NCBI RefSeq assembly: GCF_014203365.1
Contig: NZ_JACHIS010000001.1
Location: 1,612,001-1,676,000, forward strand
Origin: Actinoalloteichus hymeniacidonis
GTDB taxonomy: Bacteria > Actinomycetota > Actinomycetes > Mycobacteriales > Pseudonocardiaceae
DNA: 64,000 nucleotides
Direction of reading: 5' to 3'
Shown: piece after piece, positions 15,438 through 20,018 of the stretch
Layout of the letters: each line of letters begins with the position of its first letter
Position numbering within the stretch: the first letter of the stretch is position 1
Notes under the pieces: model-generated
What the model saw: only the letters and a program-made list of their open reading frames with translations
The model's database searches: none
Told to the model about the DNA's origin: nothing
Position numbers and translations under genes: made by a program

Positions 15438-15510
15438 CCACCGCTGGATCGTCGGTGCGCCCTGCGGTTCACCGGTTCTCGTGTTCAGCCGTGCGCGAGA
15501 CGGCTTATCA

Positions 15511-15537
15511 CCGGTTCACGTCCACATTGTGAACCGG
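15511..15537. promoter_or_regulatory. Palindromic operator upstream of the AfsA-like gene
   Basis: CCGGTTCAC (15511-15519) and GTGAACCGG (15529-15537) are perfect inverted arms with a 9-base spacer, ending 30 bases before the AfsA start codon. A partial extra copy (GCGGTTCACCGGTTC) lies about 45 bases upstream. It is well placed for a repressor site. It does not obviously match the usual butyrolactone-receptor ARE consensus, so the binding protein is unknown. Confidence 0.65.
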
Positions 15538-15566
15538 CGATGTGACGTGCCAAGGAGTAGAAGACA

Positions 15567-16421
15567 ATGGCGGAATCCACACCGGAGATGACCCGAGATT
15601 CCCATCTCGTCGCCGAGGGAATGTCGGATAGACGAGCAGCCTGCGTTGTCGGCGACAGATTCATCGCACTCACCGAGATCGAGGAAGTCCAGACGGTCAG
15701 CCAGTTCGTCGCTGCCCTGCGGCGCGGCGAACCCGTGCCGGAGCGCGTCCTAGCCGTCCAGGGCGTCTCGCAGTTCGAGCTGGACTACCTGCGCGAAGAG
15801 TTGAACAAACGGCAGGCGGCGGGCACCGAGATCGTGCCGCCGGTCTCGCCTCGCCTGGGCCGGGGCATCGTGCACAAGCAGCGCGAACCCAACGTCCTGC
15901 TCGCCGATCTGACCGCGACCGGGCCCGCCTCCTACACCGCGGGCCTGTGGTTGCACGTGGACAACGAGTTGTTCGGCGATCACCAGACCGGACAACACGT
16001 TCAAGGCATCGTCATCATCGAGGCATTACGACAGATGTTCATCGCCGTCTTCGAGATGGAATACGGACGACGGCATCAGGACCGCGATTTCTACGTGGTC
16101 TGGGATTCGATCGACATCACCTTCCTGTCATTTCTGTTCCCACTCCCCGCCACGATTCACTGCGACATCGTCGAAGCCGACCTCTCCGACGAATCCAGGG
16201 CCGGCTATCGGATGCGGATGCGGGTGCTGCAGAGCGAGGTATGCGCGGCCGAGGCCACCGTGCGGTTCGGCGGCTACGACCACGACCGGATCGAGGCGGC
16301 CGAAGCCAAGCGGGCTCGCCGTGCCGTGCACGACTTCCTGCGCAGTCGGATCGCCCCGGCCCAACCGGTCGCCCCCGCGCAGCCGGTCGCCCCCGCGCAG
16401 CCGGTGGGGGTGACCTCATGA
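15567..16421 (+). CDS. AfsA/ScbA-like hot-dog protein (butyrolactone/butenolide-type synthase candidate)
   Basis: 284 residues, ATG 15567, AAGGAG nine bases upstream. The AfsA hot-dog signature is clear: GIVHKQREPNVLLAD (100-114), then LFGDHQTGQHVQGIVIIEALRQMFIAV (135-161), and a second half with VVWDSIDITFLSFLFPLP. A-factor synthase and MmfL-type proteins join a beta-ketoacyl thioester to dihydroxyacetone phosphate. This protein has one clear copy of the domain, not an obvious tandem, so it may be a divergent branch with another condensation. The C-terminus ends in three repeats of AQPVAP. The gene opens an operon with phosphatase, small protein and ketosynthase III, which would supply the acyl donor and remove the phosphate. 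Confidence 0.85.
   Translation: MAESTPEMTRDSHLVAEGMSDRRAACVVGDRFIALTEIEEVQTVSQFVAALRRGEPVPERVLAVQGVSQFELDYLREELNKRQAAGTEIVPPVSPRLGRGIVHKQREPNVLLADLTATGPASYTAGLWLHVDNELFGDHQTGQHVQGIVIIEALRQMFIAVFEMEYGRRHQDRDFYVVWDSIDITFLSFLFPLPATIHCDIVEADLSDESRAGYRMRMRVLQSEVCAAEATVRFGGYDHDRIEAAEAKRARRAVHDFLRSRIAPAQPVAPAQPVAPAQPVGVTS
16351..16404 (+). repeat. 18-base tandem repeat (three units) in the AfsA C-terminus
   Basis: Three consecutive 18-base units (16351-16368, 16369-16386, 16387-16404) each encode APAQPV. Units two and three differ by one base, the first by a few more, so the last duplication is recent. The repeat codes a flexible Pro/Ala tail and is probably length-variable between strains. Confidence 0.85.
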
Positions 16422-17101
16422 GCGGATCCGCCCGAGTGGCCGCGGTGTTCGACGTCGATGAGACCGTGCTGTCGGTCAAGAGCATGGTGGACTTCCTGCG
16501 GTTCTACCTCGACGAGACCGAGATCCCCGCGGGTTCGAAGCAGGCGGGTCTGCTCGCGGAGTTCCAGGCGGCGCTGACGGACGACCGCGAGCCACGGGAG
16601 CAGCTGAACCGGCGCTACTACCGGGTGTACACCGGCGAACGAGCCGATCGACTGCGCGAGCTCGGCGCCAGATGGTTCGCGCAACGCCGGGCCGCACCCG
16701 GCTTCGTCAACGCCCGGATCGTGGCCACCCTGCTGCGCCATCGACTCGCCGGACACCTGGTGGTGGCCGTATCGGGATCGTTCGGGGCCTGCCTCGAACC
16801 GCTTCGGGCCGCCCTGGGCATCGACCACGTGCTCTGCACCGAACCGATCGTCGACGTCGACGGCCGCCACACCGGGGAGATCGTCAGAAGCCTCATCGGC
16901 GACGGTAAACCCGCCGCACTGCGCAGGCTGGCGGCGGCGGAGAACATCGCGCTGCCGTTGAGCTTCGGCTATGCCGATCACATCAGCGACGTGCCGTTGC
17001 TCGAACTCGTCGGACATCCCGTCGCGGTCCACCCGGACGCCCGCCTCGCCGCACATGCTCAGCGGCTCGGCTGGGCCCGGATCTCACCAGCACCGCGGTG
17101 A
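16418..17101 (+). CDS. HAD-superfamily phosphatase, HAD-IB (SerB-like)
   Basis: 227 residues from ATG 16418, which overlaps the AfsA stop (ATGA). Catalytic loop AAVFDVDETVLS (Asp 12 nucleophile, Asp 14 acid), motif II VVAVSGSFGA, motif III Lys in IGDGKPAALRRL, and motif IV FGYADHISDVPLLEL. The pattern and the helical cap after motif I are those of HAD-IB phosphoserine-phosphatase-like enzymes. In this operon the natural role is removal of the phosphate left from a dihydroxyacetone-phosphate-derived intermediate, as MmfP does in methylenomycin furan synthesis. That assignment is inference from context. A longer upstream reading frame overlapping AfsA is a shadow. Confidence 0.87.
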   Translation: MSGSARVAAVFDVDETVLSVKSMVDFLRFYLDETEIPAGSKQAGLLAEFQAALTDDREPREQLNRRYYRVYTGERADRLRELGARWFAQRRAAPGFVNARIVATLLRHRLAGHLVVAVSGSFGACLEPLRAALGIDHVLCTEPIVDVDGRHTGEIVRSLIGDGKPAALRRLAAAENIALPLSFGYADHISDVPLLELVGHPVAVHPDARLAAHAQRLGWARISPAPR

Positions 17102-17295
17102 TGGCGGCCGGGTACTGCACCTGCGGTTGTGCCGTCGCCGCGTGGTCGCTGGGCGCGCCATCGGTGCCCACTGCGCGCGAGGTCGGCCTCACCGTCGCCG
17201 ACCTGAGCGGGCGGCCGCCTTCGCCTCGCATCCACAACCCCGGGCTCGATCCAAGCGCCTTCGATGAACTCGATGAGCTGGAGGACCACCGATGA
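17101..17295 (+). CDS. 64-residue protein of unknown function inside the AfsA operon
   Basis: Start ATG 17101 overlaps the HAD stop (TGATG) and its own stop overlaps the ketosynthase start (ATGA), so it is translationally coupled on both sides, strong evidence that it is a real gene. It begins MAAGYCTCGCAVAAW, with a CxCxC cluster that could bind metal or form a thiol site. It continues with a Pro-rich middle (SGRPPSPRIHNPGLDP) and an acidic end (FDELDELED). There is no membrane span and no acyl-carrier DSL motif. I do not recognise the family. It could be a scaffold or metal-carrying accessory for the synthase or ketosynthase. Confidence 0.75.
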   Translation: MAAGYCTCGCAVAAWSLGAPSVPTAREVGLTVADLSGRPPSPRIHNPGLDPSAFDELDELEDHR

Positions 17296-18305
17296 CCATG
17301 ACGTTGCCGACCAACACCCTGCCGGACCGGCTCACCACCGAGGTCGGCACGCTGGGCTGGGGCTGCTATCTGCCCGACCGACTCGTGACCAACGACGAGG
17401 TCGCCCGCCCCGCAGGCGTGGACGCGAGCTGGATCGAGCGCAAGACCGGCATTCGGCTACGCAGACGGGCCGCCTCGCACGAGGCCGCGTCCGACCTGGC
17501 CACCGACGCGGCCCGGCACGCACTGGCGCAAGCGGGCGTGCGGGCGGAGGACCTCACGGCGATCGTCCTGGCCACCTCCACCCCGGACCATCCACAGCCG
17601 CCCACCGCCTGCCTGGTTCAGGAGAGACTCGGCGCCACCTCGGCGGCCGCCTTCGACCTCAACGCCGTGTGCAGCGGATTCGTCTTCGCCCTCGGGGTGG
17701 CGCGGGACATGCTCGCGGCCACCGGCGGTCTGGCGTTGGTCATCGGTGTCGACGTCTACTCGCGCATCCTGGACCCCGCCGACCGCAAGACCGCGATCCT
17801 CTTCGGCGACGGGGCCGGTGCCGCGATCCTCGGACCGGTTCCCGGTGGTCGAGGCGTGCAGGCGATCCGCCTGCTCAGCACCGGCAGCGAGAACCAACTG
17901 ATCCGGGTGCCCGCGGGCGGCAGTCGGATTCCGGCGACCGAGGAATCCGTTCGCGCCGGTCAACACTGGTTCACCATGGACGGTCGAGGCGTGCGCGACT
18001 TCGTCGAGGAACGGGTGCCCGCCGCGTTGACCTCCTTCCTGACCGACTCGGGAGTGGCACCCGGCGAGGTGCGACACCTGGTGACCCACCAGGCCAACGG
18101 TCGGATGATCGACGAGCTCGTTCCCCGCCTCGGCCTGCCCGCAGCCGAGGTCCACCAGAGTGTGCAGCGCTACGGCAATACCGGAGCCGCCTCCATTCCG
18201 ATCACCCTCGCCGAGGCCGCCGATTCCATCGAACCGGGCGACGTGGTGCTGCTCGCCGGGTTCGGCGGCGGGATGGCGATGGGATTCGCGCTGTTGCGCT
18301 GGTGA
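17292..18305 (+). CDS. Beta-ketoacyl-ACP synthase III (KAS III / FabH-like)
   Basis: 337 residues, ATG 17292 (an ATG two codons later is possible). The catalytic triad is intact: Cys 127 in NAVCSGF, His 266 in VTHQANGRMID, Asn 296 in RYGNTGAASIP. The KAS III GDGAGAAILG motif is at about 172-181. The enzyme condenses an acyl-CoA starter with malonyl-ACP. It is not beside other fab genes but coupled to an AfsA-like synthase, so it most likely makes the beta-ketoacyl substrate for that enzyme. It differs from the methylenomycin furan locus, which relies on shared fatty-acid synthase. Other secondary-metabolism KAS III roles (acyl transfer) remain possible. Confidence 0.92.
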   Translation: MTMTLPTNTLPDRLTTEVGTLGWGCYLPDRLVTNDEVARPAGVDASWIERKTGIRLRRRAASHEAASDLATDAARHALAQAGVRAEDLTAIVLATSTPDHPQPPTACLVQERLGATSAAAFDLNAVCSGFVFALGVARDMLAATGGLALVIGVDVYSRILDPADRKTAILFGDGAGAAILGPVPGGRGVQAIRLLSTGSENQLIRVPAGGSRIPATEESVRAGQHWFTMDGRGVRDFVEERVPAALTSFLTDSGVAPGEVRHLVTHQANGRMIDELVPRLGLPAAEVHQSVQRYGNTGAASIPITLAEAADSIEPGDVVLLAGFGGGMAMGFALLRW

Positions 18306-18353
18306 TCGAGCCGGTGCGGCCGAGACTCGCACGTCGTCGAACCGGGCGCCTGC

Positions 18354-18379
18354 GCGTTCGAACAGCGTGGTTCGAACGC
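18354..18379. promoter_or_regulatory. Hairpin/double palindrome between the ketosynthase and the flavin monooxygenase
   Basis: GCGTTCGAAC (18354-18363) and GTTCGAACGC (18370-18379) are perfect arms with a 6-base loop. Each arm also contains the self-complementary octamer GTTCGAAC. It may be a transcription terminator for the four-gene operon or a dimer-of-dimers operator for the monooxygenase. The mycobacterial LexA box TCGAAC-N4-GTTCGA is similar, but here the spacer is six. Confidence 0.6.
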
Positions 18380-18494
18380 CCCGGCGCCTTCGAGTGCCGC
18401 CGGTTTCCCGTTCCGGCGGACGAATGAGGACACCCCGATCGGGTCGACCGATGTCGGGCATCGAACAAGCTCCACTGGCGAGGGAGAGAAAGCC

Positions 18495-20018
18495 ATGGAC
18501 GTCAACGCACACCCCGAGGTGTTGGTGATCGGAGCGGGCCCCAGCGGCCTGCTCGCCGCCTGTGAGCTGCTGCGCCGGGGCATCGGTGTGCGGCTCGTCG
18601 ACGCGGCCACCGCCCCGGTGAGCTATTCCAAGGCATTGTTGTTGTGGCCACGCACCGTCGACGTCCTCGAGAACCTCGGTGCGGGCCCGGCCGTGGAGAA
18701 ACACAGCGTCCGGATCAACTCGTTCCGCTACTACTCCGCGAAACGACAACTCGCCGACGTGCGGTTTCCCCCGGAACTGGCCGCGCGAGCGCTGCCGCAG
18801 CGCTACACCGAGGACATCCTGCGCGAGAGGCTGACCGCGCTCGGCGGCACCATCGAATACGGCGTCCGATTACTGGCCCTGGACCGGATGGACTTCTCCG
18901 GCGATCCCGCCGCCACCGACGGCGTCACCGCCGTGTTGGAACACGCCGACGGCCGGGTCGAACGCTGCACGGCCGACTGGCTGATCGGCGCGGACGGAGC
19001 GGGCAGTGCGGTGCGAGCCCAGCTCGGTCTGGCCTTCACCGGTTCCACCTATGCCAGCCGGTTCGTCCTCGGCGACGCTCACATCGAGGGCGGCCTTGCC
19101 GACGACGAGGCGCACTACTTCCAGTCGCCCGCAGGCGTGTTGGTGGTGGTGGCCCTGCCCGACGGGCTGTTCCGTTTCTTCGCCAGTGCACCGCCGGAGC
19201 AGCAGAACGGCCGGGTGGACCTGCCCCTGATCCAACGCATCGTCGACGAACGCGGGCCCGGCGGCATCCGACTCGTCGACCCGCAGTGGCTCAGCGGCTT
19301 TCGGGTGCACCGCAGGCAGGCCGACCGGTTCCAGCTGGGCCGGGTCTTCCTGGTGGGCGATGCCGCCCACGTGCACAGTCCGGCGGGCGGCCAGGGACTC
19401 AACACCGGTCTGCAGGACGGCCACAACCTCGCGTGGAAACTCGCCTCGGTGATCCACGACGAGGCCCCGATGTCGCTGTTGACCAGCTACGGCCCCGAAC
19501 GGCACACGGTTGCGGCGCAGGTGGTGCGGGATACCGACATCCAGACCCAGGCGTGGATGGCCCGAAACCCAGCGATCGTGGCGGGCCGGGACCTGCTGTT
19601 CCGGGCCGCGGACCGAGTGGGCCTCATCGAACGCGGCTATCTACCGATCATGGCGGGCAGGCGGTGGCGCTACCGGCCTGCGGATTCGGTCGCATTGCTG
19701 GCGCCGCAGCCCAACGAGGACCGGGGCGCACTACGGGTAGGAACCGCAGCCGGTCCGATCCTGCTGTCGCCCAAGGACGGACAACGGGACCTGCGGTGGA
19801 CCCTGCTGACCGAGGGCGTGTCCTGCCCGCCGCCTGCCCCCTCGGTCCGGGTGCTGCCCGCTCAAGGTAGGTGGGCGAACCTGTCGGGCTGCGCGCGGAC
19901 CGCCTTCGTGCTGGTGCGCCCGGACGGCGTGATCGCCGCACGAGGCCGGTCCGCCGAACTGACGAGGGCGTGTCGGTGGGTGGCGGATTTGTTGGAGGTC
20001 CCACAGACGCCGATGTAG
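18495..20018 (+). CDS. FAD-dependent monooxygenase, group A aromatic-hydroxylase type
   Basis: 507 residues. FAD-binding GxGxxG at 13-18 (VIGAGPSGLLAACEL), the DG motif LIGADGAGSAVR (164-174), and the GD motif VFLVGDAAHVHSPAGGQGLN (284-303) define the PF01494 family. The last ~110 residues resemble the thioredoxin-like C-terminal domain of phenol-hydroxylase-type members (LPAQGRWANLSGC ... FVLVRPDGVIAARG). It uses NAD(P)H and oxygen to hydroxylate, epoxidise or perform Baeyer-Villiger oxidation. It lies 189 bases after the ketosynthase on the same strand, beyond a hairpin, so it may belong to the locus as tailoring enzyme but could have its own promoter. AGGGAGAG precedes the ATG. Confidence 0.9.
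   Translation: MDVNAHPEVLVIGAGPSGLLAACELLRRGIGVRLVDAATAPVSYSKALLLWPRTVDVLENLGAGPAVEKHSVRINSFRYYSAKRQLADVRFPPELAARALPQRYTEDILRERLTALGGTIEYGVRLLALDRMDFSGDPAATDGVTAVLEHADGRVERCTADWLIGADGAGSAVRAQLGLAFTGSTYASRFVLGDAHIEGGLADDEAHYFQSPAGVLVVVALPDGLFRFFASAPPEQQNGRVDLPLIQRIVDERGPGGIRLVDPQWLSGFRVHRRQADRFQLGRVFLVGDAAHVHSPAGGQGLNTGLQDGHNLAWKLASVIHDEAPMSLLTSYGPERHTVAAQVVRDTDIQTQAWMARNPAIVAGRDLLFRAADRVGLIERGYLPIMAGRRWRYRPADSVALLAPQPNEDRGALRVGTAAGPILLSPKDGQRDLRWTLLTEGVSCPPPAPSVRVLPAQGRWANLSGCARTAFVLVRPDGVIAARGRSAELTRACRWVADLLEVPQTPM

Follow-up and report, generated by a model that had tools for sequence, protein, structure and literature searches.

A conserved, probably butenolide-forming operon with an AfsA protein of a separate branch and a roaming cysteine motif in Actinoalloteichus hymeniacidonis

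The genome of the actinomycete Actinoalloteichus hymeniacidonis (Pseudonocardiaceae; assembly GCF_014203365.1) contains a five-gene locus built around an AfsA-type protein. The window analysed is the 64,000-nucleotide stretch from position 1,612,001 to 1,676,000 of the forward strand of contig NZ_JACHIS010000001.1, and coordinates given without a locus number refer to it. The first gene (15567..16421, +) encodes a 284-residue AfsA-type protein and is preceded by the ribosome-binding site AAGGAG (15552..15557, +). It is followed by genes for a 227-residue HAD-IB phosphatase (16418..17101, +), a small protein (17101..17295, +), a 337-residue ketosynthase III (KAS III; 17292..18305, +), and a 507-residue group A flavin monooxygenase (18495..20018, +). 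The first four genes overlap start to stop, as described in the initial annotation of this sequence. The AfsA stop lies at 16421 and the HAD start at 16418, base 17101 is common to the HAD stop and the ATG of the small open reading frame (ORF), and the stop of this ORF at 17295 overlaps the KAS III start at 17292. The monooxygenase gene, which had been placed just downstream, begins after a gap of 189 nucleotides and accompanies the core genes both within the genus and in Pseudonocardia. We regard the locus as a genuine and conserved operon of butenolide type, with an AfsA protein from a distinct branch and a newly noticed motif that changes its place among these genes in relatives.

The AfsA-type protein contains one hot-dog domain, in agreement with the single clear copy recognized initially. 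Its match to PF03756 (68 bits, gathering cut-off 24) is confined to residues 102–234, and its AlphaFold model (predicted local distance difference test score 88) consists of an N-terminal α/β domain and one FabZ-like hot-dog. The structure-search matches of the model span residues 94–239 only. The two hot-dog repeats expected of butyrolactone synthases (about 290 residues) are present in a control protein from the same genome, P0006, and are not found in the window protein. With the ScbA/BarX model NF041195, of which a part aligns, the window protein scores 32.2 bits against a cut-off of 200. This cut-off is strict, and the full-length two-hot-dog control P0006 is also below it (175 bits). Of 15 related genomes, 10 have a single-hot-dog protein that scores 26–52 bits with this model, and five have one that goes unreported at an E-value of 1e-5; seven of the 15 hold an additional protein that is over the cut-off. 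Because of the single hot-dog and the low NF041195 score, we reject membership in the ScbA/BarX-type butyrolactone synthases. A position outside the butyrolactone synthases was named in the initial annotation as an outcome that would refute its reading, and as far as the ScbA/BarX model goes the protein has this position. The protein shares with the AfsA/ScbA/BarX synthases the PF03756 hot-dog, a phosphatase partner, and the glutamate and arginine of the EAxRQ helix (E152 and R155), which are invariant in 24 of 24 aligned sequences and which we take to be catalytic from work on ScbA. It differs from them in having one hot-dog and an N-terminal α/β domain instead of two hot-dogs, and in a genome without a receptor over the cut-off. 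In Pfam searches at E-values up to 1, PF03756 is the sole family listed, and an AvrD-type condensing enzyme is thus not indicated. The C-terminus of the protein (16355–16410) contains a tandem PAQPVA repeat that is absent from both sister species.

The phosphatase matches PF12710 (105 bits, cut-off 27) and TIGR01490 (137 bits, cut-off 98), and contains the motifs FDVDET (residue 11), VSGSF (118), GDGK (161), and YADHISD (185). The KAS III matches NF006829 with 322 bits (cut-off 249) and the fabH model TIGR00747 with 286 bits, which is under the cut-off of 292, and its Cys-His-Asn motifs are AVCSGF (125), THQAN (265), and YGNTGA (294). The monooxygenase matches PF01494 (231 bits, cut-off 22) and contains GAGPSG (13), GADGAG (165), and GDAAH (288). 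The catalytic motifs of all three enzymes are intact. The only other match to the operon KAS III in the genome at an E-value of 1e-15 (35% identity) is located between malonyltransferase, acyl carrier protein (ACP), and KAS genes. Therefore, judged by sequence and genomic setting, the operon KAS III is a dedicated enzyme distinct from that of the fab operon, as initially proposed.

The small protein is 64 residues long from the ATG at 17101 (or 65 residues from the GTG at 17098). It is composed of the N-terminal motif CTCGCAVAAWSLG (codons 17116..17154, +), a variable linker, and the acidic C-terminus GLDPSAFDELDELEDHR. Searches of family libraries gave no family above cut-off for this protein, and a comparison with solved structures gave no match (best E-value 0.4). 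The versions from the three species of the genus share the N-terminus CxCGCAVAAWSLG and the C-terminus GLDPxAFDELDELEDHR, whereas their middle part is variable and their length ranges from 64 to about 125 residues. The 13 motif codons of the window and of the sister species L031 differ by six silent differences and one changed residue. The core of the motif, CxCGCA(V/L)AxWS, places three cysteines within five residues.

The conserved-neighbourhood check suggested with the initial annotation gave a positive result. The same five-gene order occurs in the two other Actinoalloteichus species examined and in a draft contig of Pseudonocardia sp. CNS-139 (L033, with L113 as its second copy), so the gene set is more than a chance arrangement. 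The Pseudonocardia contig has apparent frameshifts in the HAD, KAS III, and small-protein ORFs. Relatives of the AfsA protein at an E-value of 1e-10 are found in 51 of 390 genomes of the family, the window's own included. One alignment-based scan of contigs produced 38 loci from Streptomyces, Kitasatospora, Nocardiopsis, Nocardia, Glycomyces, Actinoplanes, Catenulispora, and other genera. Among 80 distinct loci with a single-hot-dog AfsA protein, 49 contain HAD, 28 contain KAS III (≥49% identity), and 27 contain both. Seven second copies of genomes already present (L113, L114, L115, L124, L038, L206, L222) were dropped before loci were counted.

The clade of the operon KAS III, defined at an E-value of 1e-85, is present in 26 of 394 genomes sampled across the class, including that of the window. 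In three of the 25 others, the KAS III lies with a single-hot-dog AfsA protein (two of these had already been found), in four it lies with a two-hot-dog AfsA protein and HAD, and in 18 there is no AfsA in the stretch examined. A monooxygenase with 55% identity is present in three of the four two-hot-dog loci. In a KAS III tree of 66 rows calculated by a quick method, the window, the two sister species, and Pseudonocardia cluster together with a Shimodaira–Hasegawa-like approximate likelihood ratio of 99. The two-hot-dog clusters are nested among the single-hot-dog ones, with forks of 85–93, and therefore the two types of AfsA protein look exchangeable within one pathway. Three loci of family f19 (L214, L217, L221), with two-hot-dog AfsA, HAD, KAS III, and the divergent monooxygenase, resemble a parallel version of the window pathway. 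In locus L137, a two-hot-dog AfsA protein (about 1748–2638, 303 bits) is, by coordinates, within about 7 kb of the single-hot-dog one.

The cysteine motif, which is free-standing in the window, can share an open frame with HAD or with KAS III in relatives. It makes up the tail of HAD, at the C-terminus, in ten loci (L112, L125, L126, L127, L135, L136, L137, L138, L144, L212), is in one open frame with and N-terminal to KAS III in five loci (L034–L037 and L108; start codons were not assigned), and is in an ORF directly 3′ of KAS III in four (L129, L130, L133, L141). In L033, the motif is ahead of KAS III amid apparent frameshifts, and this locus is listed apart from the fusions. A looser Cys/Trp variant at the N-terminus of KAS III in L134 and L145 was left out of the counts. 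The strict motif is present in 18 of the 28 loci that combine single-hot-dog AfsA with KAS III, in none of the four loci with two-hot-dog AfsA, and in one of 19 loci without AfsA; the last count becomes zero of 18 when L108, which was fetched because of its motif and is hence biased, is removed. When the six frames of 103 loci (3,331,677 residues) were searched, two motif patterns produced 16 and 18 hits, every one of which adjoins HAD or KAS III. As controls, the patterns were reversed and scrambled; these produced 0, 0, 0, and 2 hits in the same loci, none of them in such a position. L108 is included in the 103 loci, and L109 and L110, which were fetched for the motif alone, are outside them. 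The KAS III of L108 that is in frame with the motif (L108:8756-9865, +) has no AfsA nearby and adjoins crotonyl-CoA carboxylase/reductase, a major facilitator superfamily pump, and P450. The AfsA protein of that genome has two hot-dogs and is about 90 kb away on the contig.

Based on the gene content, the predicted fold, and the families of the enzymes, a biosynthetic pathway can be proposed. The dedicated KAS III would condense acyl-CoA with malonyl-ACP to a short β-ketoacyl thioester; since the operon is without an ACP gene, the carrier is probably the housekeeping ACP. The single-hot-dog AfsA protein would then join the thioester to a phosphorylated ketose, most likely dihydroxyacetone phosphate (DHAP), to give a phosphorylated butenolide. 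The HAD phosphatase may subsequently take off the phosphate, and the group A monooxygenase may oxidise the product. AfsA-like enzymes convert a 3-keto thioester and DHAP to a phosphorylated butenolide (PMC7756379). One of the closest known cases, by description, is the AfsA-like phosphorylated butenolide synthase domain GdsF of the gladiostatin polyketide synthase (PKS), which was shown to condense 3-keto thioesters with DHAP; it differs in being a PKS-tethered domain, whereas the window protein is a separate enzyme beside KAS III. In methylenomycin biosynthesis, MmyC was proposed to supply a short 3-keto thioester as a KAS III (PMC12593393). We conclude that the product is probably a small, oxygenated lactone of the butenolide type or a furan, built by such steps from a fatty-acid-like starter and a sugar phosphate. 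No characterised pathway with this gene set was found in the published literature searched. The compound may serve as a signal or be more like an antibiotic.

The small protein with its Cys/Trp motif would complete the pathway by tying HAD to KAS III, whether or not a metal takes part, or by handling the thiol-reactive intermediate. An element that stands alone in certain species, and in others is joined to one or the other of two partner enzymes, is most simply read as one that holds these enzymes together. The three cysteines within five residues suggest metal or thiol chemistry. From this placement, we infer that the motif is a docking or metal/thiol element of an enzyme complex. We speculate further, with little confidence, that CxCGCA(V/L)AxWS is a new exchangeable thiol (or metal-thiolate) tether, whose cysteines transiently bind a thiol-reactive butenolide intermediate, so that KAS III, the single-hot-dog synthase, and the phosphatase can pass it to one another. 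Such a tether would explain why the motif occurs free, on the tail of HAD, or on the head of KAS III, and nearly always in this gene set.

Several observations weigh against the proposed pathway and the role given to the motif in it. There is no HAD match in 31 of the 80 single-hot-dog loci, although some of the stretches are short, and the monooxygenase is matched in only ten. Neither an ACP nor a ketoreductase gene is present within the operon. We know of no assayed enzyme of the single-hot-dog AfsA subfamily, and the ketose phosphate is therefore transferred from relatives. Of the 28 loci that have both single-hot-dog AfsA and KAS III, 10 lack the strict motif, L140 among these having a degenerate copy, and hence the motif is not essential everywhere. 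The motif label requires six changes on the KAS III tree, at least four of them by well-supported branches, so that a single origin followed by fusions is not demonstrated. Both motif patterns were written after hits had been seen, and many of the loci are close kin. As a genome-wide marker, the DNA pattern of the motif was rejected, since it gave 30 sites in the 390 family genomes and about 85 (hand count) when read backwards. Nine of the 30 sites are at AfsA loci, one (L108) is at KAS III, and at the other 20 the surrounding 1.5 kb shows no match to AfsA, HAD, or KAS III; therefore, the short pattern is specific only beside the cluster.

The initial annotation presented the locus as a candidate undescribed hormone locus, whose gene combination suggested a new chemical variant of actinobacterial autoregulator. 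The AfsA-type, probably butenolide-forming core with its phosphatase, dedicated KAS III, new small protein, and monooxygenase is supported, and the hormone role is not. The initial remark that no ArpA-type receptor gene is adjacent extends to the whole genome: a search of the complete sequence, one that a divergent receptor could escape, gave no ArpA/ScbR-type receptor over the cut-off of 150 bits, and the highest NF041196 score was 58 bits. Matches of the ScbR family below the cut-off are common; they occur at 78 places here and also in 13 of 14 control genomes. Because no receptor is over the cut-off, a hormone is unproven and the label is not supported. A true autoregulator system, in which a butenolide signal is sensed by a TetR-type receptor encoded elsewhere, would fit the AfsA-type core and the TetR-family genes in 15 of the clustered loci, one annotated representative of which has TetR_N and PF17926. 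Since the receptor score is low and the AfsA protein is outside the ScbA/BarX model, we consider such a system unlikely. Moreover, an AfsA-related/HAD-IB/DUF2165 gene set of Chromobacterium is expressed together with an efflux pump (PMC12114271), and an exported product would account for this no less well than a signal.

That gene set, from Chromobacterium subtsugae, resembles the window by description in that the AfsA-related protein adjoins HAD-IB; KAS III, a monooxygenase, and the cysteine motif are unmentioned in the accessible part of the report, which describes the set with DUF2165 as quorum-regulated. A DUF2165 membrane protein is also beside AfsA and HAD in L112 (5330-5950, −), L121, L125, L127, L136, and L144, and DUF2165 is found beside the Actinopolyspora and Nocardiopsis relatives. 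In an alphaproteobacterial relative, the megaplasmid of Ruegeria pomeroyi DSS-3 (L071), an AfsA-related protein is accompanied by HAD-IB, tautomerase, aldo/keto reductase, and carboxymuconolactone decarboxylase genes.

Alternatively, the operon could encode an antibiotic-type pathway like those of methylenomycin and the GI-9 island of S. ambofaciens, in which a pentulose (phosphate) takes the place of DHAP as the partner of the KAS III product, with oxidation to follow. In the methylenomycin proposal, MmyC makes acetoacetyl-MmyA, which MmyD joins to pentulose (PMC12593393), and GI-9 carries KAS III, ACP, AvrD, aldo/keto reductase, carboxymuconolactone decarboxylase, and flavin adenine dinucleotide monooxygenase (PMC11195616). 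In these systems, as proposed for the window, a KAS III would feed a butenolide-forming enzyme, with flavin oxidation following later, and the window has the dedicated KAS III that is characteristic of the methylenomycin/syringolide (AvrD/MmyD) type. Carboxymuconolactone decarboxylase, tautomerase, and aldo/keto reductase genes are also located near relatives of the window AfsA protein. Both known systems, however, use an AvrD-type instead of an AfsA-type condensing enzyme, and have their own ACP and more tailoring genes, whereas the operon is without an ACP or decarboxylase gene. Because MmyD is AvrD-like and the window protein matches PF03756 alone, we reject the methylenomycin core as a direct homologue and regard a pathway of this kind as doubtful. 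It is very improbable that the 64-residue protein is a ribosomal peptide precursor with cysteines modified by neighbouring enzymes, since, for all its short length, cysteine richness, conserved N-terminal core, and hypervariable middle, the same motif is in one open frame with HAD (ten loci) or KAS III (five loci, start codons not assigned), and no peptide-modifying enzyme or protease family is among the window ORFs scanned.

Directly 5′ of the ribosome-binding site is the inverted repeat CACCGGTTCAC-n9-GTGAACCGG (15509..15537, no strand), which may be an operator or a 5′ leader hairpin. It has one match in the window and none in 100 shuffles, and this is its sole occurrence in the complete 6.3 Mb genome. 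Both arms are altered in the sister species L031 with pairing kept, and one pair is broken in L032. The folding of the leader RNA compared to shuffles gave z-scores of −3.7 for L031, which is the only clear excess, −1.6 for the window, and −0.4 for L032. A protein of about 208 residues without a Pfam or NCBIfam match is near AfsA, HAD, or KAS III in L145 (10590-11216, +) and 17 other loci, and is absent from the window stretch that was clustered. The second AfsA protein of the genome (L111:7423-8526, −; genome 674–676 kb) has two hot-dogs and adjoins a short-chain dehydrogenase/reductase and two ketosynthase-like genes. One 'butyrolactone' cluster has been listed for A. hymeniacidonis (PMC5168871), which could be either this second locus or the operon.

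The operon points to a separate AfsA branch, with one hot-dog and an α/β domain, that often has its own KAS III and is spread across many actinomycete genera. The label 'butyrolactone' would not separate this branch from the hormone synthases. Since two-hot-dog synthases also occur beside this type of KAS III, phosphatase, and monooxygenase, it can be tested directly how the two AfsA architectures are related. The roaming motif would indicate which enzymes of the pathway work together, and it provides a sequence handle with which more clusters can be found.

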